Of a stretch of DNA of 64,000 nt, positions 3,461 to 56,436 are shown one piece after another. The notes under the pieces were generated by a model. That model did not search any database. It saw only the letters and a list, made by a program, of their open reading frames with translations, and had not been told where the DNA came from. Each line of letters starts with the position of its first letter. Positions within the stretch are counted from its first letter, which is position 1. The position numbers and the translations under genes are program-made. Origin of the DNA: Croceicoccus pelagius (GTDB lineage Bacteria; Pseudomonadota; Alphaproteobacteria; Sphingomonadales; Sphingomonadaceae); assembly GCF_001661915.1 (NCBI RefSeq), contig NZ_LYWY01000040.1, forward strand, positions 248,001 to 312,000, given 5' to 3'.

Positions 3461-3918
3461 CAGCCACACCTCTGGTAAGTAAAGGGACCTTGGGCATCAC
3501 CCGCATCGGTCGAGCGGGTCAATGTCGCACCGTCGAGTGTGAGCGTCTCGGTCCGCGACCACTCCATTCCTTCACCGGTATAGGCGAACTTCGCGACCAC
3601 GTGGTTCGCGTCACGCTCGGTAACCTGCTCCAGCTTGCCCACACTTTCATAAAAGCGCAGCGAGTTTGAGCTGACTTTCATCAGCCCCTTGGCGTCGCCC
3701 GCCTGCGAAGTGCAGTCGGCATCGACCATGCCCCAGCGCCCGCGCAAGGGGGCCGGGATGGTCTGCTCCATTTCGTCGGTCGCGTCCGCGACCGCCGGTT
3801 CGGCGGTGTCGGGCGCAGCATTGGCGTCTTGCGTGTTCACGCCCTCGGGCGCGCTCGTATCACCGCAGGCGGTGAGGCCGAGCGCCATCAAACTGATGAG
3901 AAGAGCTGTTTTCTTCAT
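3460..3918 (-). CDS. hypothetical lipoprotein
   Basis: A 152-residue protein with a clear lipoprotein signal: MKKTALLISLMALGLTAC, a lysine-rich n-region, a hydrophobic core and the lipobox LTAC. It is followed by an acidic Ala/Asp/Thr-rich linker (about residues 20-50) and a compact C-terminal domain beginning PLRGRWGMVDADCTS and ending FTYQRCG, in which two Cys may pair. No specific function is recognised; the GRWG...DC start recalls small periplasmic lipocalin-like lipoproteins, but this is weak. It heads the same-strand run that continues into the I78 inhibitor and valine genes and is separated from the aldehyde dehydrogenase upstream by a strong hairpin. Confidence 0.7.
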   Translation of the reverse strand: MKKTALLISLMALGLTACGDTSAPEGVNTQDANAAPDTAEPAVADATDEMEQTIPAPLRGRWGMVDADCTSQAGDAKGLMKVSSNSLRFYESVGKLEQVTERDANHVVAKFAYTGEGMEWSRTETLTLDGATLTRSTDAGDAQGPFTYQRCG

Positions 3919-3938
3919 GGCAACCTTTCAACGCGTGA

Positions 3939-3998: not shown

Positions 3999-5420
3999 TC
4001 AGATTGCAGCCATGATGTCCTTACCGAACAGTTCTTCATCGCTCGGCAGGGTCTTGGGCGTGGCAAGCGGCTTGGAGACCCACGTTTCGTTGATCAGGTC
4101 GCGCCACGTGATGTTGTTGTTTGTGCCGTTACCGCCCCATGATCCGCAGCCCAGCGAGAACGTCTGGCGCATGCCGTTCCACAGGTTGCCCGAGTTGGAG
4201 GGCGACTGCGGCTGGTTCACCATGACGCGGCTGGTGCGGGTGCCCTCGGCCAGCTTCATGATGTTCTCGTCCGAGTTGGAATAGATACCGCAGCTGTGGC
4301 CCTGGCCCTGATAGGCCTGGATCCGATTGGTCAGCGCGATCGCTTCCTCGATGTCCTTCGCGCGGTAAAGCGCCATCGTCACGGTCATCTTCTCGCCCGA
4401 AAACTTGTGCTCGGGGCCGGCGCCGGTTTCGGGGACGATGAAGAACAGCGTACCTTCCGGAATTTCGAAGCCGGCATAGCTGGCGATGAACTCAGCCGGC
4501 TGTGCGACGACCTTGGCGTTGATGTGCTCACCGTCTTCCCAGATCGCGTTTTCGAGCTTCTTCTTCTGCTCGTTGTCGAGGACGAGGCCGCCCTGCGCCT
4601 TCAGCTTTTCGAGCATTTCGTCGTAGATCGCATCGAACAGGATGACCGAGTTGTCCGAGGAACAGGATGCGGCATTGTCCAGCGTCTTGGAAATGCGGAT
4701 CTTCTCGGCCGCATCATCCAGATCGGCGGTATCGTCGACGGTGATCACGGCATTGCCGACACCGACGCCCAGCGCGGGGGTTCCGCTCGAATAGGCGGCC
4801 GTCACCATCGGCGCACCACCGGTGGCGAGCACGCGGTCGCACTGCTTCATCAGTTCGTTGGTCTTGTTTACCGAGGGAACCTCAATCGCCTGCACCAGAT
4901 CGGCGGGCGCGCCCATCTTGACGATCGCTTCACGCATTAGATCAACGATCTTCTTGTTCGTCAGCTTGGCGCGCGGGTGCGGCGCGATGATGATCGAGTT
5001 GCGGCCCTTGATCGCGCTGATCGACTTGATCACCGGAGTCGCTTCGGGATTGGTCGACGGCGAAAGCGCGCCGATCACGCCAACGGGCTTGGCGATCTTG
5101 ACGATGCCGCGCTCGGGCATTTCCTCGATGATGCCGACCGACTTGTCGTGGATGATGTCCTGCAGGGTCGCGCGGGTCTTCTTGGCGATCTTGAGGAACT
5201 TGCCCTCGTAATTACCAAGCTGCGTTTCATCGACGGTGAACTGCGCGATCTCTTCGGCAACGCCGGGCTTGCAGACGGCCCACACCATGGCGGTGATCAG
5301 CTTGTCGACCTGCTCCTGCGTGTAATCGGCGATCTGCTCCTGCGCGATGCGCGAGCGTTCGATCATCGCAGCGATTTCGGCGGCGTCGTCGGTGGGTTCG
5401 GTCAGAGTTGCGGTAGCCAT
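3999..5420 (-). CDS. CoA-acylating aldehyde dehydrogenase (SauS/EutE/AdhE-N type)
   Basis: A 473-residue aldehyde dehydrogenase fold without the N-terminal features of ordinary NAD(P)-ALDHs. The catalytic Cys is at about residue 253 in ASCSSDNSVI. The GALSPSTNPE segment is characteristic of CoA-acylating dehydrogenases, including the AdhE N-terminal domain and sulfoacetaldehyde dehydrogenase SauS. Such enzymes convert an aldehyde, CoA and NAD(P)+ to acyl-CoA. The match feels closest to SauS, but no sulfoacetate transport or sulfoacetaldehyde acetyltransferase gene is nearby, so the substrate is open. It is divergent from a LysR-type regulator gene that probably controls it. Confidence 0.75.
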   Translation of the reverse strand: MATATLTEPTDDAAEIAAMIERSRIAQEQIADYTQEQVDKLITAMVWAVCKPGVAEEIAQFTVDETQLGNYEGKFLKIAKKTRATLQDIIHDKSVGIIEEMPERGIVKIAKPVGVIGALSPSTNPEATPVIKSISAIKGRNSIIIAPHPRAKLTNKKIVDLMREAIVKMGAPADLVQAIEVPSVNKTNELMKQCDRVLATGGAPMVTAAYSSGTPALGVGVGNAVITVDDTADLDDAAEKIRISKTLDNAASCSSDNSVILFDAIYDEMLEKLKAQGGLVLDNEQKKKLENAIWEDGEHINAKVVAQPAEFIASYAGFEIPEGTLFFIVPETGAGPEHKFSGEKMTVTMALYRAKDIEEAIALTNRIQAYQGQGHSCGIYSNSDENIMKLAEGTRTSRVMVNQPQSPSNSGNLWNGMRQTFSLGCGSWGGNGTNNNITWRDLINETWVSKPLATPKTLPSDEELFGKDIMAAI

Positions 5421-46928: not shown

Positions 46929-47600
46929 TCAGCCTCCCGCCGCCTTGAGGGCAGCGATGTTCTCAGCGTACTTGTCAGGCCCGCCCTTGAACGTGGCCGA
47001 TCCGGCGACCAGCACATCGGCCCCGGCATCGACGCAAAGCTTCGCGGTTTCCGCGTTCACGCCGCCGTCGACTTCAAGGTGGATGTCGCGGCCCGTCTTG
47101 TCGATCATCTTGCGCATCGCCTCGATCTTGCGAAGCTGCGAGTGGATGAAGCTCTGCCCGCCGAAACCGGGATTGACGCTCATCACCAGGACGAGGTCGA
47201 TGTCGTCGATCAGGTAGTCGAGCATCTTGGCAGGCGTTGCGGGGTTCAGCGAAATGCCCGCCTTGCAGCCCAGCGCCTTGATCGCCTGCACCGTGCGGTG
47301 GACGTGGGGTCCGGCCTCGGGATGAACTGTAATGATGTCCGCGCCTGCCTTGGCGAAGTCTTCGAGGTACAGGTCCACCGGGCTGATCATGAGGTGGACG
47401 TCGAAGGTCTTGGCCGTATGCGGACGAAGCGCCTTCACCACGGCGGGGCCGATGGTGATGTTGGGAACGTAGTGGCCGTCCATGACGTCGACATGGATCC
47501 AGTCCGCGCCGGCTGCGTCGATGGCGCGCACTTCCTCGCCAAGTGCGGCGAAGTCTGCAGACAGGATGGAGGGCGAGATAAGCGGTGTTGGCATGGACAT
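46929..47600 (-). CDS. rpe: ribulose-phosphate 3-epimerase
   Basis: A 223-residue TIM-barrel enzyme that interconverts D-ribulose 5-phosphate and D-xylulose 5-phosphate in the pentose phosphate pathway. Motifs: [46 protein letters not shown] and EVDGGVN, which include the metal-binding and catalytic Asp residues. The start at 47600 (MSMPTPL) is preferred; a start two codons later (MPTPL) is possible. It is the first gene of the run leading to heparinase II/III and purH. Confidence 0.94.
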
Positions 47601-47821
47601 CGAATTACTCCAGCCGGGCAAAGCGCCACAAGGCGCAATCGCAGCTTTATTCACATAGCTGAACACGGGCAGAGGTTGAAAAGCGCAGTTAACCCGCACT
47701 TGTTCCGGATCGTGTCAGTACAAACGCATCCGCTTGAACGCGGCGAAGCGCATGGTTAAGCGCAGATATCCCGCACAAGAAGGCGCGCCCCGGCGCCGGT
47801 GACGGGACGGAACCCGAAAAA

Positions 47822-48700
47822 ATGCGCCCAGCCGAAGCCATGTCCTTGATGCAGCGCGAAACCCGCGTCGCGCATGGCGTGGTAGATCCCGTGCTGGGCG
47901 GATACGCGGTGGCCGTCGGCCATAACCGGATCGTTGGCGACAGCTTCGTCCTCCGCGAGGAAGGCTTTGCGTGCAGCTATCGCAAGGGCGACTGCATCAC
48001 GATCCAGATCGACGATCCTGCCAAGAAAGGTCTGCTGGACCTGTTTCTTGCAGGGTCGGTGCATAGCGCAATTGCCGCAATCAACGGCTTCACCGCGCTC
48101 CACGCCTCGGCCGTGGAAGTGGACGGCAAGGCCATCGCCTTTACCGGCCCGTCCGGCGCGGGAAAGTCGACCACGGCCGCAGCGCTGCGATCGCGCGGAT
48201 TGCCCATCGTTGCGGACGATACGCTTGTCGTGGACATGGCCAGCGGCAAGCCGATGTGCCTTCCCGGCCACAAGCGGCTGAAGCTCTGGACCGATTCGGT
48301 CGAGATGACGGGAATGCCAGCCTTCGAGCTGGTGTCCGAAGACTACCGCAAGGTCTTCGCCGCCGAAGAGCCGAGCGAGATCGATCACCCTCTTCCGCTC
48401 GGCGCGATCGTCGTTGTCGAGGCGGGTGCTGCGCTGGCATTCGAACCTGTGCGCGGCGCAGCGCGGATCGCGCTGCTGGACGACGATCACTATACCTCGC
48501 AGCATCGCATCATGGCGCAAGGGCAGGATCGGGCAGGCCGCATGAAGGACCTTGCGCGGCTCGCCTGCGCGGTTCCGGTATTCCGCTTCACGCGTCCTCT
48601 GGACCCGGGTTGCTTCGCAAACACTCACGATTTTCTCGTGGGCACGTTATCAGGCATCTTTCGCATGGACAGACAGGGCGCAGATGATCAGCAAGTGTGA
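47822..48700 (+). CDS. HPr-kinase-like kinase of the lasso peptide cluster
   Basis: A 292-residue protein with a C-terminal HPr-kinase/phosphorylase-type fold: TALHASAVEVDGKAIA, Walker A GPSGAGKST (about 109-117) and ADDTLVVD (about 131-138). It lacks the N-terminal HprK regulatory domain and there is no HPr or PTS gene nearby. Kinases of this kind occur in paeninodin-type lasso peptide clusters, where they phosphorylate the C-terminal Ser of the peptide. It overlaps the B1 gene by 17 bp and is the first gene of the cluster. The ATG at 47822 has GGAA upstream; an ATG at 47840 is the alternative. Confidence 0.8.
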   Translation: MRPAEAMSLMQRETRVAHGVVDPVLGGYAVAVGHNRIVGDSFVLREEGFACSYRKGDCITIQIDDPAKKGLLDLFLAGSVHSAIAAINGFTALHASAVEVDGKAIAFTGPSGAGKSTTAAALRSRGLPIVADDTLVVDMASGKPMCLPGHKRLKLWTDSVEMTGMPAFELVSEDYRKVFAAEEPSEIDHPLPLGAIVVVEAGAALAFEPVRGAARIALLDDDHYTSQHRIMAQGQDRAGRMKDLARLACAVPVFRFTRPLDPGCFANTHDFLVGTLSGIFRMDRQGADDQQV

Positions 48701-48950
48701 AGGCAGTTACGTAGAAACCGAAGTCGACGGGGAAGTCGTCCTCATGAACGTCGATACCGGCACGTTCTTCTCGCTCGAAGGGACGGCGCTCGACGTCTGG
48801 AAGGCCATCGACGGCGCGCATGACGAAGCGGGCATCGCGGCCCTTCTCGCGCCGCAATTCGACGAAAGCGAAGCGCAGATCGCACAGCACGTCGGCGAAT
48901 TCATCGCCTCCTTGGCCGAGGCCGGACTGGTGCAGAAAACCGCACCATGA
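48684..48950 (+). CDS. PqqD-like leader-recognition protein (lasso B1)
   Basis: An 88-residue PqqD-family protein, MISKCEGSYVETEVDGEVVL then GTALDVWKAIDGAHDEAGIAALL and GEFIASLAEAGLVQ, the small winged-helix RiPP recognition element. In split lasso systems (B1 plus B2) it binds the precursor leader and delivers it to the protease and cyclase. It overlaps the kinase stop by 17 bp and the B2 start by ATGA, so the three are co-translated. It is not near PQQ genes, which rules out a PQQ role. Confidence 0.85.
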   Translation: MISKCEGSYVETEVDGEVVLMNVDTGTFFSLEGTALDVWKAIDGAHDEAGIAALLAPQFDESEAQIAQHVGEFIASLAEAGLVQKTAP

Positions 48951-49366
48951 CGCGCGTGCGCCTTCGCGCCTTGGAGGCAATGGCGCTTCTTCTGGCGGCG
49001 CGCATGATCGTGCGCTTCGTGCCTTTGCGCAGGCTAGGTCGCATCCTCGGCAAGTCCGAACCTTACGCCCTGCGACAAGACGTGGGTGCCGTTTCAGCAG
49101 AAGACGAACTTGCTGCGCGGCAATGTGCCGCCGCTGTCCGGCGGGCAGCATTTCGCCTTCCCGGAACGCTGTGCCTGCCGCAGGCCATCGGACTGCGCTG
49201 GATGATGGAACGGCGCGGCATGGACAGCACGGTCGTCGTCGGCATCCGTCCGGCGGGCGAGCGCGGAACCGCGCATGACCTTCACGCGTGGGTCGAATTG
49301 AACGGCCAGACAATACTTGGCGACAGCGATGGAATGCACGCCAGTTTATTACAATTCCGTAGTTAA
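48947..49366 (+). CDS. transglutaminase-like leader protease (lasso B2)
   Basis: A 139-residue protein with the C76 (GTLCLPQAIGLRWMMERRG), H113 (AHDLHAWVELNG) and probable D126 (ILGDSDG) triad of the transglutaminase-like fold. This is the layout of lasso B2 cysteine proteases, which cut off the leader and free the core N-terminus for ring closure. It overlaps the B1 gene by ATGA and is followed after about 115 bp by the precursor gene. Confidence 0.85.
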   Translation: MTRVRLRALEAMALLLAARMIVRFVPLRRLGRILGKSEPYALRQDVGAVSAEDELAARQCAAAVRRAAFRLPGTLCLPQAIGLRWMMERRGMDSTVVVGIRPAGERGTAHDLHAWVELNGQTILGDSDGMHASLLQFRS

Positions 49367-49378
49367 TTTCCTGATGGA

Positions 49379-49405
49379 TTGCATTTGGGTGCAACGCAAT
49401 ATAGG
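49379..49405 (+). promoter_or_regulatory. possible promoter before the precursor gene
   Basis: The stretch 49360-49450 is clearly more AT-rich than the flanking genes. It contains TTGCAT (49379-49384) and TATAGG (49400-49405) spaced 15 bp, close to sigma70-like boxes. A separate promoter would let the precursor be made in excess over its processing enzymes. Spacing is suboptimal, so this is tentative. Confidence 0.3.
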
Positions 49406-49481
49406 CGGGGTTGGAACCATCATGACGGTTAACGGCCAAATCCGTAAAACTATGGCCGAAGTAACGGGAAGCAAAACGGAC

Positions 49482-49616
49482 ATGCAGCAGAACGACCGCA
49501 CTTGGGTCAAGCCTGAACTGAAGTTCGTTGGCACGCTTCGCGATGTCGCAGGCTCGGCCAACCCCGCTGACCAGAGCGGCGGAAACCAGCAAGGCGTCGG
49601 CAACAGCAAGAGCTGA
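49482..49616 (+). CDS. lasso-type RiPP precursor peptide (atypical core)
   Basis: A 44-residue peptide from MQQNDRTWVKPELKFVGTLR. The leader has WxxPxLxxxG, matching the YxxPxLxxxG recognition motif bound by B1. The ATG at 49482 has GGGAAG upstream and gives a normal 23-residue leader; longer in-frame starts at 49422 and 49452 have lower-GC, less codon-like sequence. The Thr usual just before the cleavage site is missing (VA occupies it). If cleavage follows that Ala, the 21-residue core starts GSANPAD, so Gly1 could bond Asp7 for a 7-residue ring, and it ends NSKS with a C-terminal Ser. Residue numbers elsewhere (Gly44, Ser64) use the 49422 start. Confidence 0.72.
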   Translation: MQQNDRTWVKPELKFVGTLRDVAGSANPADQSGGNQQGVGNSKS

Positions 49617-49618
49617 TC

Positions 49619-49638
49619 GGGTGCCCTTCGAGGCACTC
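49619..49638 (+). promoter_or_regulatory. hairpin between precursor and cyclase genes
   Basis: GGGTGCC (49619-49625) pairs with GGCACTC (49632-49638) around a CTTCGA loop (one G-T pair), just after the precursor stop. Such hairpins in RiPP operons often stabilise precursor mRNA or partly terminate it so that the precursor exceeds its enzymes. Confidence 0.45.
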
Positions 49639-49657
49639 CGGCACTTCTGATTTCACC

Positions 49658-51526
49658 ATGATCGCGGCAGGTATCGTCTGGGGAGATAATCCTCGGTTCG
49701 ATCTGTCGCGTTTGTCGTTTGGCGATGCCGCAGCGGCTCGCGGCGACGAAACGCTGTCCCGCATGGGCGACAGCGCGGTCCTTCTGCGTCATCCGCCGCG
49801 GCAGGCCCACGGAAAGACCGCACGCACGCAGTCTGGCACCATCGTCGCCTTCAACGGCTGGATCGACAACGCGGACGAGATTTCGCGGGAACTCTCGCTC
49901 CCCGCCGACAGCAATGTCGCAGCGCTCTACGGCGCAGCGACCGAGACCTGGGGCATCGCCGCAGAACGCCGCATCGTGGGTGACTATGCCGCGATCATCA
50001 TTCCTGCCGACGGGGTCATGCGGCTTTCCCGCGCGCCTTGGTCAAAGCACGGGCTTTTCTACACACTCGCCAATAGCTGCGCCGTTGCCGCCTCGGTCCC
50101 GCGCGTGCTGTTCGGCCTTGGCCTCGAACGCTCGGTCGATCCGGCGCGCTATGCCGAGCTGCTCTATGGTCTCGCGCCATCGTGGGGTGCACAGACTTAT
50201 TTCGACGAAGTCAGCCAGGTCGAACAGGGCAGCGTCGTCACGATCGATCGCGGCAGCGTTCAGAAAGTGCAGTGGTATGACCCGCACGCCCTGTCCGCGA
50301 CGAGGCTTGCGCGCGACGAGGACTACGTCGAACAAGCGAACGCTCTTCTGGCGGATTCGGTGCGCCATGCGCTGGGCCCGGCGGTGAGGCCCGGCATCCT
50401 TCTGTCGGGCGGACTCGATTCGCCGCTTGTCGCTGCCGAAATTCTCGACCAGTTACCGGAAGGGCGCCGGCTCAAGAGCTTTACGTTTGTGCCGCTGCAG
50501 GAAGGCAACGAGCCTGTCCTGCCCGCGCATTTCCATTCGGACGGGCCAGCGGTCGAGGCATTCGCCGCGCTATATCCGGCGCTCGATCCGCAGTTCATCG
50601 ACAATCGCGGCATCGCATTCGGGCACATGCTGGACGATACTTTCCGCACAAGCGACGCAGCCTACCCATCGCTGATCGCATCCGAATTCCGTGGGCCGTG
50701 GCAGGCGGCATCAGACGCGGGATGCGACTGGCTGTTTACTGCCGACATGGGCAACCAGACATTTAGCTGCGAAGGCAACTGGGCCTTCGTCGAATTCCTG
50801 CGCACCGGGCGCTTTGGCGAACTGATGCGCCTCCTGCGCGCGGTGCCGGGCGATGATCGGCCGCTGTGGCGGCGTTTTGCCGCCCGCTCGATCCTGCCGA
50901 ACCTGCCTGCCGCGATCAGGTCGGCGGTCCGCACACTGGTGCATGGTGATATGGCCCGCCCGCTCGTGCGCAGGGAGGTACGCGAAAGGCTCGACCTCGA
51001 TGCCCGTTACCGCGCACAATATGGAGAGCGCGAATGGGTGCGGACGCGGCGCGATTTCGTCAGCGATGCCTGGTCGATGACCTCTGGCGGAACCGAGATG
51101 ACCGCCGCGGCCGAAGACCTCTACGGGTTCCGCTTCCGTACGATTCCACAGTACCGGCCCCTTCTCGAATTCTGCCTGACGATCCCGACTGACCAATACG
51201 TGCGCCATGGCGAACAGCGTTACCTCGCCCGCCGTATGGCGATAGGGCGTTTGCCCGAGGCGCAACGCACCAACCGGCGCTATGGCCGCCACGGCGTCGA
51301 CTGGTTCGAACGCGAAACGCCGCGCCTTGCCCTGATGCGCGAGGAGATCGAGCGTATCGCTGACGATCCGGTGATGAACGCGATCATCGACGTCGAAGGC
51401 GCGATGGAATTGCTCGACAACTGGCCCGACCGTCCCGACTACCGCGCCAAGCTCGAGGTATTCATGCCGCTTGCCGCCGCCGTCGTCGCGGGCCGCTTCG
51501 CCCGCTATGTCGACGGCCGCAATTGA
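49658..51526 (+). CDS. asparagine-synthetase-like lasso cyclase (C protein)
   Basis: A 622-residue asparagine synthetase B homologue. The ATP pyrophosphatase motif SGGLDS is at about residues 250-255, preceded by a glutaminase-like N-terminal domain that lacks the usual Cys2 (starts MIAAG) and so cannot release ammonia. These traits match lasso cyclases, which adenylate the ring Asp/Glu side chain so the core N-terminus can attack it. It follows the precursor by 41 bp including the hairpin. A true asparagine synthetase would need Cys2. Confidence 0.87.
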   Translation: MIAAGIVWGDNPRFDLSRLSFGDAAAARGDETLSRMGDSAVLLRHPPRQAHGKTARTQSGTIVAFNGWIDNADEISRELSLPADSNVAALYGAATETWGIAAERRIVGDYAAIIIPADGVMRLSRAPWSKHGLFYTLANSCAVAASVPRVLFGLGLERSVDPARYAELLYGLAPSWGAQTYFDEVSQVEQGSVVTIDRGSVQKVQWYDPHALSATRLARDEDYVEQANALLADSVRHALGPAVRPGILLSGGLDSPLVAAEILDQLPEGRRLKSFTFVPLQEGNEPVLPAHFHSDGPAVEAFAALYPALDPQFIDNRGIAFGHMLDDTFRTSDAAYPSLIASEFRGPWQAASDAGCDWLFTADMGNQTFSCEGNWAFVEFLRTGRFGELMRLLRAVPGDDRPLWRRFAARSILPNLPAAIRSAVRTLVHGDMARPLVRREVRERLDLDARYRAQYGEREWVRTRRDFVSDAWSMTSGGTEMTAAAEDLYGFRFRTIPQYRPLLEFCLTIPTDQYVRHGEQRYLARRMAIGRLPEAQRTNRRYGRHGVDWFERETPRLALMREEIERIADDPVMNAIIDVEGAMELLDNWPDRPDYRAKLEVFMPLAAAVVAGRFARYVDGRN

Positions 51527-51586
51527 GCCTGCACGCGCCCCTTGCAGCAGGTGACGCGGGCCGCACAGCCCATTAGGACGGATGCG

Positions 51587-53269
51587 ATGAAGGGCACATC
51601 GGTCACTCTCCTGCGCAGCGTAGCCGCGCCCCGCCTGCTGGCGCTGCTCGCGCTCATGCTGGCGAGCGCGCTGACCGAAGGGGCCGGCATCATCGCGCTC
51701 GTCCCGATGCTATCGCTGCTGTCGGCGGACGCGGGCAACATTCCCGACTGGGCGCACCCTTTGGCGAGCCACGTCACGCTCAGCGCTCTCCTCGCCTTCT
51801 TCGTCGCGCTCGTCGCCTTGCGTGCGGTGCTGCAATATGCGGTGAGCGTGCTGCAGCGCCGGTTACAGCTTGAGGTGGTCGATCACTGGCGTAAGACAGT
51901 CTTTTCCGCGCTGGTCAGGGCCGATTGGCGCACGCTTTCGGCGCTGCGCAATTCGGATCACGCCAGCATGGTCGTCATGGGTGTGGACCGGCTCGGCTAC
52001 GGGTTTGCCAACCTGCTGCTGCTGATTTCCGGCGCGGCGACGCTGGGGGCGATCTGGATCGCCGCGCTCTGGCTTTCGCCGGTGCTGGCGCTGGTCGCGG
52101 TGGGCGGCGGGCTGGTCGTCCTTGCCGGGTTCGCCCCGCTACGCCGTCGCGCACACCTTCTCGGCAAGCGGCTGGGCGAGGATTATCGCCGCGTACAGGC
52201 CGTGCTGGACGACACGATGCGCGCCATGCGGCTGGTAAAAAGCCACGGCCGCGAGCAGGCTGCGAGCGAGGAGATGACCCGCTCGACCAGCGACTTGCGC
52301 GACGCGCAGATCACATTCGAGAAAGCCGCAGGCCGCGCCCGCGTCCTGCTCCACGTGGGTGCGGCGCTCCTGCTGGCGGTGATCGTGGCGCTCGCCTCTT
52401 CCCGCGACATCGCCCCTGCCGTGCTCCTCCCGCTGATCGCTCTTTTCGCGCGCTCGGTGCCGCTGCTCGATTCACTGCAGCAGGCGGCCCAGCACTGGGT
52501 TCATGCGGTGCCTGCGCTGAAAGATGCCGAAGCGCTTATCGAAACCTTGCGCGAGGCCGAGGAACTGTCCCCGACCGGTTCCGCCCGCCTGCACCCGGCC
52601 AGCAGCATTTCCGTCAACGGTGTCGCCGTGCGCCATCCGGGGCGCGAGCAGGCAGCGGTCGAAGGCGTGACGCTTGATCTCGCGGTGGACGCGACAACCG
52701 TACTCGTCGGCCCGTCGGGTGCGGGCAAGAGCACGCTTGCCGACATCTTCGGCGGTCTTTTGCAACCGGACGAAGGCGTGGTGGAGATAGACGGCCAGGC
52801 TCTCTCTCCCGAAGGACTGATAGGCTGGCGCGCCTCGGTCGCCTATGTCCATCAGGAACCTGTGCTGTTCCACGGAACGGTGCGCGAAAACCTGCTCTGG
52901 GCAGAGCCCGAGGCCCGCGAGGATACGCTCGAACAGGCACTGCGTTCGGCAAGCGCGGGGTTCGTGTTCGACCTGCCCTGTGGGCTCGACACGGTGGTCG
53001 GCGATGCCGGACGCCAGCTTTCGGGCGGGGAGCGACAGAGGATCGCACTTGCCCGTGCGCTGCTTCGCGATCCGGCGTTGTTGATCCTCGACGAAGCGAC
53101 AAGCGCGCTCGACTCCGCGAACGAGGCGGCGATCGGCGCCGCAATCGCAGGCATGGCGGGCACGCGCACGATCCTCGTCATCGCGCACCGCGGCAAGCTG
53201 GCAGAGACTGCAGACACGCTCGTTCATATGCGGGATGGACGGATCGAAGCGATCGAGAATCGATCGTGA
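51587..53269 (+). CDS. ABC exporter of the lasso peptide cluster (D protein)
   Basis: A 560-residue type I ABC exporter: six-helix membrane domain (about 15-310) fused to an ATPase with Walker A GPSGAGKST (375-383), signature LSGGE (478-482) and Walker B LLILDE (498-503). It has no C39 protease domain, so it exports already processed peptide, as lasso D proteins do. The ATG at 51587 with an AGGA site is chosen; an upstream in-frame TTG at 51542 is less likely. It overlaps the nucleotidyltransferase-like gene (GTGA). Confidence 0.87.
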   Translation: MKGTSVTLLRSVAAPRLLALLALMLASALTEGAGIIALVPMLSLLSADAGNIPDWAHPLASHVTLSALLAFFVALVALRAVLQYAVSVLQRRLQLEVVDHWRKTVFSALVRADWRTLSALRNSDHASMVVMGVDRLGYGFANLLLLISGAATLGAIWIAALWLSPVLALVAVGGGLVVLAGFAPLRRRAHLLGKRLGEDYRRVQAVLDDTMRAMRLVKSHGREQAASEEMTRSTSDLRDAQITFEKAAGRARVLLHVGAALLLAVIVALASSRDIAPAVLLPLIALFARSVPLLDSLQQAAQHWVHAVPALKDAEALIETLREAEELSPTGSARLHPASSISVNGVAVRHPGREQAAVEGVTLDLAVDATTVLVGPSGAGKSTLADIFGGLLQPDEGVVEIDGQALSPEGLIGWRASVAYVHQEPVLFHGTVRENLLWAEPEAREDTLEQALRSASAGFVFDLPCGLDTVVGDAGRQLSGGERQRIALARALLRDPALLILDEATSALDSANEAAIGAAIAGMAGTRTILVIAHRGKLAETADTLVHMRDGRIEAIENRS

Positions 53270-54420
53270 ACGAGGCGCTCGACAGGCAGAAGGCGGCGCT
53301 CCTCGACCTCATCGGACCGGCGCGAACACCGCCCGAATGGAACGCGCTGGAAGAGGCCGACTGGCAGGCGATCGCCGCCATGGCGCAGCAGCACCGGCTG
53401 GAGCCTTGGCTGCACCACCGTTTGCGTACATCAGGGGGGGACTGGCTGGTTCGCGCCGATCTCGCCGGGCAATGGAAAGAGGCCTATCGCACCGCGTCGT
53501 TCAGCGCGCTGACCGCGCAGGCCGCGCTCGTCCGGCTTGCCCGCGCCTTTTCCGATGTCCAGGTACCGATGGTGGCTCTGAAAGGCGCGCGGCTGGCCTT
53601 CTTCGACTACCCCGAAGCGGCCCTGCGCCCGATGCGCGACATCGATCTTCTGGTCGCGCCCCAAGACCTGCCCCGCGCGCTCGAAGCCATGGCGCAGGCG
53701 GGTTGTGACGTGCCGGCCAATCGCGAACGCGCTATCGCCAAGGCACTCGACGGGGACAAGCACCTCGACCCGATCCTGCTGACCGATTGCCAGCGCTACG
53801 TCGAACTCCACCATCGCATTGCAGAACCGGGGCTGCCCTCTATCGACACCGCGACGATCCTCGCGAGTGCCAAGGTCGAGCATCTGGCCGGCACGCCGAT
53901 CGCCTTTCCGGGCGACGTGGAGATGCTCGGTCACCAGGTGCTTCACGCGGCCTACAACCACCGTTTCGACTGCGGCCCGCTCGCGCTGGTGGACATCGCG
54001 CAGTTGCTGGCACGCTCACCCGTCGATGCCGTGCGGTTTGCCGCCATAGCGCGGGAAGGCGGGTGGCTTGCCGGAGCACGGCTGGTCGTCGCACTGGTCG
54101 ACAAGGTCATGGGCCCGACGGGGCTGAACATCGGGCAGCAAAATGTCCCTGCCGAAGTGCTGGCCGAGGGTGAACGCTTGCTGCTGCAAGACTTCGAACA
54201 GCGAGCGCAGGTGCTTCTTGCCTCGCAATCCGCGCGCAACGGTTTGTTCGCGACCCTGGCATCGCGCCTCAAGGGGGGCATCAAACGCGAACACGAGGAA
54301 GGCTTCGTCCGCTGGCTGGCCAGCCGCACGGTGCGCTCGGTTCGGCAAGGCGGCAACGCCCGCGCCCGTTCCGAAGCCGCATCGGGGGCCATCGTCGCGA
54401 GGTGGCTGGAGGAAACGTAA
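53266..54420 (+). CDS. nucleotidyltransferase-like protein of the lasso cluster
   Basis: A 384-residue protein of the uncharacterised NTP_transf_5 nucleotidyltransferase family, with KGARLAFFDYPEAALRPM leading to RDIDLLV (Asp 125/Asp 127, the metal-binding DxD). The rest is helical. Homologues sit in kinase-containing lasso clusters, where one (from a Bacillus cluster) was reported to extend the phosphorylated peptide with a sugar or similar group. Starting GTG overlaps the exporter stop, so it belongs to this operon. A second tailoring step is likely, its chemistry unproven. Confidence 0.75.
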   Translation: MNEALDRQKAALLDLIGPARTPPEWNALEEADWQAIAAMAQQHRLEPWLHHRLRTSGGDWLVRADLAGQWKEAYRTASFSALTAQAALVRLARAFSDVQVPMVALKGARLAFFDYPEAALRPMRDIDLLVAPQDLPRALEAMAQAGCDVPANRERAIAKALDGDKHLDPILLTDCQRYVELHHRIAEPGLPSIDTATILASAKVEHLAGTPIAFPGDVEMLGHQVLHAAYNHRFDCGPLALVDIAQLLARSPVDAVRFAAIAREGGWLAGARLVVALVDKVMGPTGLNIGQQNVPAEVLAEGERLLLQDFEQRAQVLLASQSARNGLFATLASRLKGGIKREHEEGFVRWLASRTVRSVRQGGNARARSEAASGAIVARWLEET

Positions 54421-54506
54421 CACGGCTGCGAACTCTTGGATTAAGAAGGAATTCAGCGGCTATTCACGGGTCGATAGCTAGTTCGACCTGCAAGACTGCC
54501 GGAAAA

Positions 54507-54528
54507 GCCGCGTTTGCATCAAACCGGC
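54507..54528 (+). terminator. possible terminator after the lasso operon
   Basis: GCCG (54507-54510) plus GTTTG (54512-54516) pair with CAAAC (54520-54524) and CGGC (54525-54528), a 9-bp stem with one bulged base and a 3-nt loop, 86 bp after the last gene. No U-tract follows, so it is a weak call. The rest of the 217-bp gap holds nothing recognisable except the ribosome-binding site of the next gene. Confidence 0.3.
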
Positions 54529-54637
54529 CGGAACGGCTTTCGGGGGCGAATAGTTGGGGTTGAAAGCGTCGCCAGACGCCTCCACCTTTACGCCTTCTCC
54601 CCCGCAGACATGAATTATTTACGTATCGGAGATACCG

Positions 54638-55150
54638 ATGAGTGCACTTAAGTTCGGCCCAGGCAAGAAGAGCGTCCTCGCAGCGCCCGTGATGGCAATG
54701 GCGGGCCTTGGCGCGCTTGCTGCGGCTCCTGCCCCCGCGATGGCCGCACCGGCCCAGTGCCAGGGCGATCTTTCCGGCGCATCGTGGCTCAATGTCGAGG
54801 TCACGGGGGTCAAGAGTTCCTCGGGCCTGATGGCGGTCACAATCTATGCCGACGATTCCAGCCGCTTCCTCGCCAGCAAGGGTTCGCTCGACGTCGTGCG
54901 TTTCCCGGCCAAGGAGGGTACGTGGCGCGGCTGTGTGAAGCTGCCGAAGAACGGCGTCTATGCCATCGCGATCTATCACGACGAAGATGGCAGCCGTAAG
55001 ATCAACCGCAGCGGCTTGGGTCTGCCGACCGAAGGGTTCGGCTTTTCGAACAACCCCAGCACGCTGGCCGGCATTCCCGCCTTCCGCTCGGTCCGCCTCA
55101 GCGTGCCGAAGCCGGGCCTGACCACGCGGATCAACATCACTTACCCTTAA
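54638..55150 (+). CDS. DUF2141 family secreted protein
   Basis: A 170-residue protein with a signal peptide (MSALKFGPGKKSVLAAPVMA ... AMA|APAQC) and a DUF2141 domain: LNVEVTGVKSSSGLMAVTIY, RFPAKEGTWRGCVKLPKNGVYAIAIYHDEDGS, GLPTEGFGFSNNP. The fold is a small beta sandwich, and the protein is periplasmic or secreted; function unknown. The ribosome-binding site CGGAGAT precedes the ATG at 54638. It has its own strong hairpin downstream and so is monocistronic. Confidence 0.85.
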   Translation: MSALKFGPGKKSVLAAPVMAMAGLGALAAAPAPAMAAPAQCQGDLSGASWLNVEVTGVKSSSGLMAVTIYADDSSRFLASKGSLDVVRFPAKEGTWRGCVKLPKNGVYAIAIYHDEDGSRKINRSGLGLPTEGFGFSNNPSTLAGIPAFRSVRLSVPKPGLTTRINITYP

Positions 55151-55178
55151 GCTTTTCCGCAATAGGGCAATAACATGC

Positions 55179-55213
55179 GCCCCGGCCGCTCGACATGGCG
55201 GCCGGGGCGTTTA
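55179..55213 (+). terminator. intrinsic terminator
   Basis: GCCCCGGCCGC (55179-55189) pairs perfectly with GCGGCCGGGGC (55198-55208), 11 bp with an 8-nt loop, followed by GTTTA. It lies 28 bp after the DUF2141 stop and just before the M20 gene start, a clear terminator for the former. Confidence 0.8.
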
Positions 55214-55224
55214 TCTTGCGCCCT

Positions 55225-56436
55225 ATGAACCGCATCACGAATGACGAACTGACCGCCGCTGCCGAAGCCATCGGGCCAGAGATCACGGCCTTGCGCCGTG
55301 CGATCCATGCAGAGCCCGAACTGGGCCTCGAAACCCCGAAGACGATGGCCAAAGTGCGCGAGGCACTGGCCGACCTGCCGCTCGAATGGCGCGAAGGCCC
55401 GCAAACGACGGGACAGGTCGCGATTCTGAAAGGCGGCGCGGACGAAGGACGGCGCGTCCTGCTGCGCGGCGACATGGATGCTTTGCCGATGGGCGAGGAA
55501 ACGGGGCTCGATTTCTCCTCCACCATTCCGGGCCGGATGCATGCCTGCGGGCACGACACGCATACCGCCATGCTGGTCGGCGCGGTGAAGCTTCTGGCCG
55601 AACGCGTGAACAGCATCCGGGGCGAAGTCATGTTCATGTTCCAGCCGGGCGAGGAAGGTTTCGGCGGGGGCCGCATGATGATCGAGGACGGGCTGATCGA
55701 TCCGCTGCCAGAGGCCGCATTTGCCTATCACATCATTCCCAACGCCCCGCACGGGCTGTTCGTGTGCCGCGAAGGCCCGCTAATGGCCGCGTCCGATGCT
55801 ATCGAGATCCGCGTGAAAGGGCGCGGCGGCCATGCCTCCATGCCGCACTTCTCCGCCGACCCGCTGCCGGTTGCCTGCGAAATCGTGACCGCGTTGCAGG
55901 CCATGGTGACGCGGCGCTTCAACGCCGCCGAGCAGGTCGTCGTCACCGTCACCCAGTTCCGCGCCAGCGATGCCGACAACATCATCCCCGACGTCTGCAC
56001 CTTGCGCGGCACGATCCGCACCCTGTCGCCCGAAACGCGCGAGCGGGTTCACGCGGCCTGCAAGGATCTGGTCGAAGGCATCGCCTCAGCCCACGGCATG
56101 GCGGGCGAATTTATTGTCGAGCATGGCTTCCCCGTGACCAACAACGATGCCCGCGCGGTCGCCCTTGCCCGCGAAGTCGTGAAGGATCGCTTTGGCGAGC
56201 AAGCCTGGTACGACCTGCCCGATCCGCTGATGACGGCAGAGGACTTCTCATACGTCCTCGACGCTGTGCCGGGCGCGATGATCCTGCTGGGCGTCGCCAA
56301 GCCCGATGCAGACTGGCAAAAAGCGCCGGGGCTCCACAGCCCGCGCATGCATGTCGACGAGAGCGTGTTGCCGCGCGGATCAGCACTGCTGGCGGCGCTG
56401 GCGATGGAAACGCTGGAGCGGGGATTGCCTGCCTAA
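55225..56436 (+). CDS. M20-family amidohydrolase (hippurate hydrolase-like)
   Basis: A 403-residue M20D peptidase-type amidohydrolase. Zinc ligands are visible in MHACGHDTHT (Cys 108, His 110) and PGEEG (Glu 143/144); IRVKGRGGHASMPH, GFPVTNND and TAEDFSYVL are further landmarks. Such enzymes release acyl groups from N-acyl amino acids. The ATG at 55225 (MNRITNDE) is preferred because the in-frame start at 55195 lies inside the upstream terminator. There is no signal peptide, so it acts in the cytoplasm. Confidence 0.9.
   Translation: MNRITNDELTAAAEAIGPEITALRRAIHAEPELGLETPKTMAKVREALADLPLEWREGPQTTGQVAILKGGADEGRRVLLRGDMDALPMGEETGLDFSSTIPGRMHACGHDTHTAMLVGAVKLLAERVNSIRGEVMFMFQPGEEGFGGGRMMIEDGLIDPLPEAAFAYHIIPNAPHGLFVCREGPLMAASDAIEIRVKGRGGHASMPHFSADPLPVACEIVTALQAMVTRRFNAAEQVVVTVTQFRASDADNIIPDVCTLRGTIRTLSPETRERVHAACKDLVEGIASAHGMAGEFIVEHGFPVTNNDARAVALAREVVKDRFGEQAWYDLPDPLMTAEDFSYVLDAVPGAMILLGVAKPDADWQKAPGLHSPRMHVDESVLPRGSALLAALAMETLERGLPA

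Follow-up and report, generated by a model that had tools for sequence, protein, structure and literature searches.

A lasso-type gene cluster in Croceicoccus pelagius

The 64,000-nucleotide stretch of Croceicoccus pelagius analyzed here (GCF_001661915.1, contig NZ_LYWY01000040.1, positions 248,001 to 312,000; referred to as the window) harbors seven open reading frames on the + strand at window positions 47822-54420. This operon is a genuine lasso-type gene cluster for a ribosomally synthesized and post-translationally modified peptide (RiPP), and its precursor, like those of most relatives, carries a glutamine at the presumed ring-closing position. The original prediction had described seven same-strand genes forming a split-B cluster of the paeninodin/pseudomycoidin kind. 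The open reading frames were found as predicted, and the gene set, including the kinase and the nucleotidyltransferase, agrees with that kind of cluster. To call the genes mostly overlapping was generous, as overlaps exist at only three of the six junctions (kinase/B1, B1/B2 and ABC/nucleotidyltransferase). A gap of 291 bases separates B2 from the cyclase and holds the precursor. The genes are:

47822-48700, + strand: HprK-like tailoring kinase (K); matches to PF07475 and HprK_rel_A, both below cut-off; H-K-D-D residues
48684-48950, + strand: B1, PqqD-like leader-recognition protein; PF05402
48947-49366, + strand: B2, transglutaminase-fold leader peptidase; NF033537; C76/H113
49482-49616, + strand: precursor; orthologues with the same leader motif adjoin related cyclases
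49658-51526, + strand: cyclase (C), asparagine-synthetase fold, Gln-acceptor clade; PF00733, SGGLDS PP-loop, tree placement 100/100
51542 (TTG) or 51587 (ATG) to 53269, + strand: ABC exporter; PF00005, PF00664
53266-54420, + strand: nucleotidyltransferase-like protein (N); PF14907

Profile searches, which had been proposed as a check, gave scores above the cut-offs for B1, B2, Asn_synthase and NTP_transf_5, whereas the kinase and lasso-cyclase models stayed below theirs. B1 matches PqqD PF05402 with 60.7 bits (cut-off 23.4), and its scores with two PqqD models specific to lasso clusters, 38.4 and 37.2, are both below cut-off. B2 matches NF033537 (lasso_biosyn_B2) with 72.6 bits (cut-off 33), so that the predicted PqqD-like B1 and transglutaminase-like B2 are both backed by family matches. 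The cyclase reaches 45.8 bits for Asn_synthase PF00733 (cut-off 21), 63.4 bits for the lasso cyclase model NF033535, far below its cut-off of 525, and 59.0 bits for asn_synth_AEB, below the cut-off of 267.

The precursor is composed of the leader MQQNDRTWVKPELKFVGTLRDVA and the inferred core GSANPADQSGGNQQGVGNSKS, which ends in serine. In the register given by the inferred cleavage site, the core spans 49551-49613, with Asp7 at 49569-49571 and Gln8 at 49572-49574. No match was obtained with NCBIfam models. The orthologous Croceicoccus precursors share the start position. Because orthologous precursors with the same leader adjoin related cyclases, the small precursor that had been proposed between B2 and the cyclase appears to be more than a chance open reading frame. 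Across the clade the leader follows the consensus W..P.L...G...[DNE][VI], in which W and P are invariant and L is kept in at least 90% of 38 precursors. Counted from the inferred cleavage site, position -2 is occupied by Val in 33 and by Ile in 23 of 56 precursors, and position -3 in the Gln clade by Asp in 52, Asn in three and Glu in one of 56.

The acceptor position and the cyclase clades

Published descriptions have lasso rings close on Asp or Glu at positions 7-9, an acceptor that belongs to the definition of the class (PMC10368454, available text). Relatives of the cluster were collected by a cyclase search of 298 genomes of the family (48 hits at 1e-30, plus four named loci) and by scanning the order (396 genomes) with a profile built from 38 precursors, which led to 21 further clusters. 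All 41 profile hits fell within that family. With core numbering starting after D[VI]x, 51 of the 56 precursors from 55 loci have Gln at the acceptor position (Q8 in 48, Q9 in 3), the others E8 (3) or N9 (2). This count does not rest on near-copies, because clustering at 60% identity yields 28 clusters with Q8 in 23, Q9 in one, E8 in two and N9 in two. One core column is Q in 48/56 sequences, compared with at most 15/56 in 2000 within-core shuffles, and the Gln codons vary (CAG 40, CAA 11). Gln was present in 32 of 35 precursors from the 34 loci found by the cyclase only and in 19 of 21 from the 21 profile-found loci. Of the 51 Gln cores, 34 are entirely free of Asp and Glu, and 37 lack an acid at positions 7-9; the core of Qipengyuania gaetbuli (locus L004), GPPGGVRQSSAIGHS, contains no acid. 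As judged from these sequences, a ring through Asp or Glu would be impossible for the 34 acid-less cores, and it is uncertain for the window's peptide, where Asp7 stands beside Gln8. In the literature searched, largely without subscription papers, no report of a Gln acceptor in lasso peptides was found, and the available text of a 2026 review of interlocked peptides (PMC13352647) mentions none.

A tree of 70 cyclases separates an Asp clade (15 rows) from a Gln clade (55 rows) with a support of 100/100. Within the Gln clade, the tree shows Glu arising twice and Asn once. Nine of 79 cyclases were omitted: L005 and L040 (contig ends, no assigned precursor), L054, L055, L084 and L085 (distant), and L138, L140 and L143 (another type). 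The sister clade has D8 in seven and D9 in four of 11 assignable precursors, with unchanged spacing to the [VI] at -2; four of its 15 rows (L044, L050, L051 and L052) have no assignable precursor. These precursors were picked by eye and measured by script, and since an acid helped acceptance, 11/11 is a biased rate. Asp(-3) was considered as a ring acceptor and ruled out, as eight of the 11 sister precursors with their own D8 or D9 also carry it. Because of its presence there, we read the near-invariant Asp(-3) as a probable leader-recognition residue.

Three genomes, that of the window (G000), G178 and G221, encode one cyclase of each clade together with a single B2 and a single PqqD, and their paired precursors share the leader GT[LI].DV. 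The second asparagine-synthetase-like cyclase of G000 is located outside the window on contig C34 (L036:5582-7643), and its core, SIVKRPGFDTRNNHGS, has Asp9 and a C-terminal Ser. No B1, B2 or ABC gene was found in its 13-kb stretch. Because the genome has one B2 and one PqqD, this cyclase probably borrows B1 and B2 from the window's cluster. The same pairing occurs at L037 (G178) and L038 (G221). Since both kinds of cyclase apparently share the single B1 and B2 in all three genomes, the identity of the acceptor, Gln or Asp, follows, as far as gene content indicates, the cyclase and not B1 or B2.

The window's cyclase shares 83% identity with its Croceicoccus gelatinilyticus counterpart. Its PP-loop SGGLDS occupies residues 250-255 (S250 in 54/55, D254 in 55/55). 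The column of AsnB Cys2 is a gap in 55/55 Gln-clade cyclases, with Cys there in 2/15 D-clade rows, and AsnB Asp352 of the GSDE motif is replaced by Asn in 70/70 cyclases. The prediction of an asparagine-synthetase-like cyclase without Cys2 thus agrees with both the PF00733 match and the alignment, and with Cys2 and Asp352 absent the protein does not group with true asparagine synthetases. Three positions differ between the clades: Ala362 in 46/55 of the Gln clade versus Gly in 14/15 of the Asp clade, His545 in 46/55 versus Gln in 15/15, and Cys356 in 49/55 versus 3/15. Because the Glu-type members keep both His545 and Cys356 (the latter in 3/3 rows), these two residues appear to be markers of clade membership and not just of the acceptor.

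An AlphaFold model of the cyclase (pLDDT 91.2) was compared with known structures. It aligns with TsnB9 hydroxyamidotransferase (7ylz; Z 28.1, 520 aligned, 3.2 A), beta-lactam synthetase (1m1z; Z 26.7, 439 aligned, 3.3 A) and E. coli AsnB (1ct9; Z 25.1, 461 aligned, 3.6 A). Sequence identity in the structural alignments with beta-lactam synthetase and TsnB9 is 15-21%, and a glutaminase-type domain is retained (Z 17-19 to glutaminase-domain enzymes). The modelled fold is that of asparagine/beta-lactam synthetase.

A class-wide search recovered a cyclase relative at 1e-25 in 13 of 337 genomes, the window's own included; the outside-family cyclases from this search were not placed in the tree. 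A candidate precursor at L167, read by eye, has Thr(-2) and Asp8, and at L166 no precursor was found. A plasmid collection gave no cyclase relative at 1e-20.

Partner proteins, tailoring genes and genomic site

B1 and B2 are the sole PqqD and the sole PF13471 match in the window's genome, and C76 and H113 of B2 are kept in 21/21 rows. B2 is encoded within 20 of the 55 Gln-clade stretches. The other 35 loci, all except L004, belong to searched genomes, each with a PF13471 match. B2-family matches were present in 47/47 and 21/21 cyclase-bearing genomes versus 10/40 relatives without the cyclase; the survey covered 47 of the 48 cyclase-hit genomes (G116 was left out) and, as control, 40 of 250 cyclase-less genomes. 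Because 20/55 stretches encode B2 and yet all searched cyclase genomes have a match, many species probably depend on a B2 that works in trans. The absence of B2 beside the cyclase was therefore not taken as a sign of a B2-free pathway, given the B2-family matches elsewhere in the searched genomes. B2-type genes were also located at L137, L139, L141, L142, L144, L145, L147, L148, L149, L151 and L153. The 11-12 kb surrounding each of these eleven lone genes showed no other lasso gene; the eleven belong to genomes whose Gln-type cluster (Asn-type for L141) is without B2. Another RiPP cluster type occurs at L138:3830-6131, L140:5735-8205 and L143:3447-5536. It comprises a TFTQE- or VFTQE-like precursor stretch with a Pro-Ser end, an asparagine-synthetase-like enzyme that keeps GGDE, a kinase, B1 and B2.

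The kinase scores 31.5 bits with Hpr_kinase_C PF07475 in the Pfam search, just below the cut-off of 33.3, and 37.7 bits with HprK_rel_A in the NCBIfam search, also below cut-off. Its residues H94, K115, D132 and D133 are kept in 26/26 aligned rows. H-K-D-D is the named motif of lasso kinases, and a C-terminal Ser is the residue phosphorylated by kinases of the paeninodin type (PMC9266682, available text). Such a Ser ends 55 of the 56 Gln-clade precursors, that of the window included. The kinase gene adjoins the cyclase in 19/55 Gln-clade stretches. A kinase homologue, often a distant one, was found in 34/34 genomes searched, a count from which, with no control set, no inference is drawn. The nucleotidyltransferase matches NTP_transf_5 PF14907 with 157.6 bits (cut-off 31.2), which identifies the domain family only, and its KG...RP.D.D residues are kept in 10-11 of 11 rows. 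Strong matches to it are limited to 5/55 stretches, all from Croceicoccus; weak ones (77-93 bits) occur in L079, L123 and L136. Family matches and the H-K-D-D residues hence support the two tailoring genes that had been predicted. PsmN is needed for the hexose on the phosphoserine of pseudomycoidin (PMC9266682, available text). By analogy, phosphorylation is expected at the C-terminal Ser of the window's peptide, possibly followed by the addition of a hexose. The expectation of a phosphorylated and further modified lasso product is consistent with the kinase and the C-terminal Ser; it had assumed a conventional core, yet the clade has a Gln acceptor in 51/56 precursors.

The exporter matches ABC_tran PF00005 with 109.9 bits and PF00664 with 41.8 bits. 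No C39 peptidase family was among its Pfam and NCBIfam matches, as had been claimed. An ABC gene stands beside the cyclase in 46/55 Gln-clade stretches, and the complete seven-gene set is present in five of the 55, all from Croceicoccus. At L082, tandem precursors (3802-3927 and 4005-4130), both with Gln8, are located upstream of one cyclase.

The cluster is flanked by rpe (on the side of 46929-47699) and by DUF2141/M20 genes (54638-56436). The rpe-DUF2141 interval also holds the cluster in 24 of 35 B2-less relatives. Ten cluster-less relatives were searched and the stretch was read in nine, in four of which DUF2141 adjoins rpe. Therefore, rpe, DUF2141 and M20 were ruled out as cluster members, and the interval is a chromosomal site common to the relatives. 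An Rfam search of 47000-55500 gave 0 matches, a promoter scan found 0 (1.1 expected), and a terminator scan found 8 (5.4 expected).

Ring closure and comparison with known systems

We consider it probable that the product is a lasso-type macrocycle closed through Gln8, with the side-chain amide activated by ATP and the linkage being either an isopeptide, formed with loss of NH3, or, if water is lost, an amidine. By analogy with other lasso pathways, B1 would bind the WxxPxL leader, the kinase would phosphorylate the C-terminal Ser, and B2 would cut after D[VI]A, freeing Gly1. The cyclase would activate the side-chain amide of Gln8 with ATP, and the N-terminal amine would join residue 8. Attack by Gly1 would yield an amidine; departure of ammonia would lead to an isopeptide amide instead. 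The ABC protein would export the product, and the nucleotidyltransferase may decorate the phosphoserine, as PsmN does.

The cyclase itself is proposed as the activating enzyme on three grounds: its intact ATP loop, the loss of the glutaminase Cys, and the lack of space for any other enzyme in the smallest clusters. In a six-family search, five of the 24 B2-less rpe/DUF2141 clusters (L058, L066, L069, L072 and L076) contained only B1, the cyclase and the precursor. This leaves little room for a further Gln-preparing enzyme within the cluster; enzymes encoded elsewhere are possible. Other ATP-pyrophosphatases, among them GMP synthetase, argininosuccinate synthetase and TilS, work by activation of an amide-like oxygen followed by attack of a nitrogen. 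Amide adenylation by an asparagine-synthetase-like RiPP enzyme has a precedent in PesC, which turns an amide into a nitrile by ATP-dependent adenylation (PMC13060819, available text). A more specific proposal, that this new clade of lasso macrocyclases adenylates the Gln8 amide and that attack by the N-terminal amine closes the ring by an amidine (a 'lasso amidine'), is put forward tentatively. We know of no threaded peptide with an amidine linkage. The sequences themselves show the genes, where Gln8 stands and how well it is kept, and the split between the cyclase clades; the cleavage site, closure of the ring at Gln8 and the chemistry of that closure are deduced.

Several points weigh against closure through Gln8. 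The product is a prediction from the genes, and 21 of the 55 loci were recovered with a profile in which Gln precursors predominate. No cyclase residue tracks the acceptor strictly: Glu-type rows keep His545 (2/2 readable), and Ala362 is missing in 6/50 Gln-type rows. Residue 1 is Gly in 44/56 precursors, with Q in six, A in two, P in two, N in one and V in one. In three genomes (G002, G158 and G096) the sole B2-family match lies inside another RiPP cluster, so that its service to the Gln-type cluster is predicted only. The cleavage site is inferred as well, and canonical spacing, with W at -17, gives Ala(-2) and makes Gln residue 7. Predicted lasso leaders with Ala(-2) are known (PMC10368454, available text), so that this register is possible, but it would make the cores of the D9 paralogues, whose leaders are spaced alike, begin with Ile or Val.

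The window's core also contains Asp7, which could close a conventional lasso with a 7-residue ring between Gly1 and the Asp7 side chain, with Gln8 kept solely as a recognition element for the cyclase. For this core, the computed mass of such a product equals that of the Gln8 amidine. Asp7 is likewise present in L002, L056 and L083 of the genus, and both fold and PP-loop match acid-activating enzymes. We nevertheless regard this as unlikely, because residue 7 is variable (Asp in 11/56, Asn in L057 of the genus) and Gln8 is kept even in the 34 acid-less cores. The acid of the sister clade is at position 8 or 9, and a single mechanism for the clade is simpler.

A thiol route through the cyclase is rated as quite improbable. 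Here, Gln8 would be deamidated to Glu or transamidated without ATP, perhaps with Cys356 as the nucleophile, and the product would be an ordinary isopeptide. The occurrence of E8 at the same position in 3/56 precursors, the distribution of Cys356, found in most Gln-clade rows, few Asp-clade rows and all three Glu-type rows, and the persisting glutaminase-type domain are consistent with this route. However, the 55/55 cyclases without Cys2 keep an ATP loop that would be needless for ATP-free chemistry, and selection could have placed Glu there costlessly instead of having Gln deamidated.

It is very improbable that Gln8 forms no ring and that its amide is turned into a nitrile or the carboxylate of the C-terminal Ser is modified, as by other asparagine-synthetase-like RiPP enzymes. 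PesC forms a C-terminal nitrile via an amide, and TsrC and ScdTA amidate C termini (PMC13060819, available text). The near-universal C-terminal Ser would also fit, but Gln occupies the position that closes lasso rings, one also taken by Glu, Asn and, in the sister clade, Asp, and the co-occurrence of B2 with the cyclase suggests that a free N-terminus matters. That B2 itself joins Gly1 to Gln8 by ATP-free transamidation is hardly credible: it carries the Cys and His expected of a transglutaminase fold, and Gln is the usual transglutaminase donor, but one B2 would have to serve Gln8 and Asp9 precursors in three genomes, the acceptor goes with the cyclase clade, and the cyclase would be left without a job.

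If closure through Gln8 is true, a clade-wide Gln acceptor would represent a second ring-closing chemistry in the lasso class, and its products would be misnamed or missed by present tools. Asp or Glu at positions 7-9 is also part of the rules of genome-mining programs. Genomes that encode both a Gln- and an Asp-type cyclase, with B1 and B2 apparently common to the two, offer a natural pair for dissecting the acceptor choice. An amidine-forming reaction would be new to this branch of the asparagine-synthetase fold.

The cluster resembles those of paeninodin (Paenibacillus dendritiformis) and of SyanA/ThcoA in having B1, B2, a cyclase, an H-K-D-D kinase and a C-terminal Ser (PMC9266682, available text), but differs from them by Gln8 and by Val instead of Thr at position -2 of the leader. 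With pseudomycoidin (Bacillus pseudomycoides; PsmK, PsmN) it shares a kinase plus an annotated nucleotidyltransferase (PMC9266682, available text), whereas the host phylum and the core differ and the likeness to PsmN is by description only. The bsf cluster of Bradymonas combines an Ile/Val(-2) leader with a kinase, B1 and B2; in contrast to the window, its ring was assigned as Gly1-Asp8 with Ser3 phosphorylated, and no mature bsf product was detected (PMC10368454, available text). Lasso leaders with Ile/Val(-2) are already known in Sphingomonadales from the same paper, whose available text contains nothing on the acceptor residue of these precursors. Lasso clusters have been predicted in Erythrobacter genomes (PMC9723273, available text), and a recent lasso peptide with Asn1 keeps an Asp acceptor (PMC12670498, available text). 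The cyclase has its fold in common with beta-lactam synthetase and TsnB9 over most of the chain. The substrates of these two enzymes are small molecules. PesC, of the nitrilobacillins, shares the asparagine-synthetase fold and a RiPP substrate, and the amide adenylation proposed here is that of PesC. It differs in that PesC acts on a C-terminal carboxylate or amide with glutamine or ammonia as nitrogen source (PMC13060819, available text), whereas the window's cyclase, without Cys2, would act on an internal Gln.

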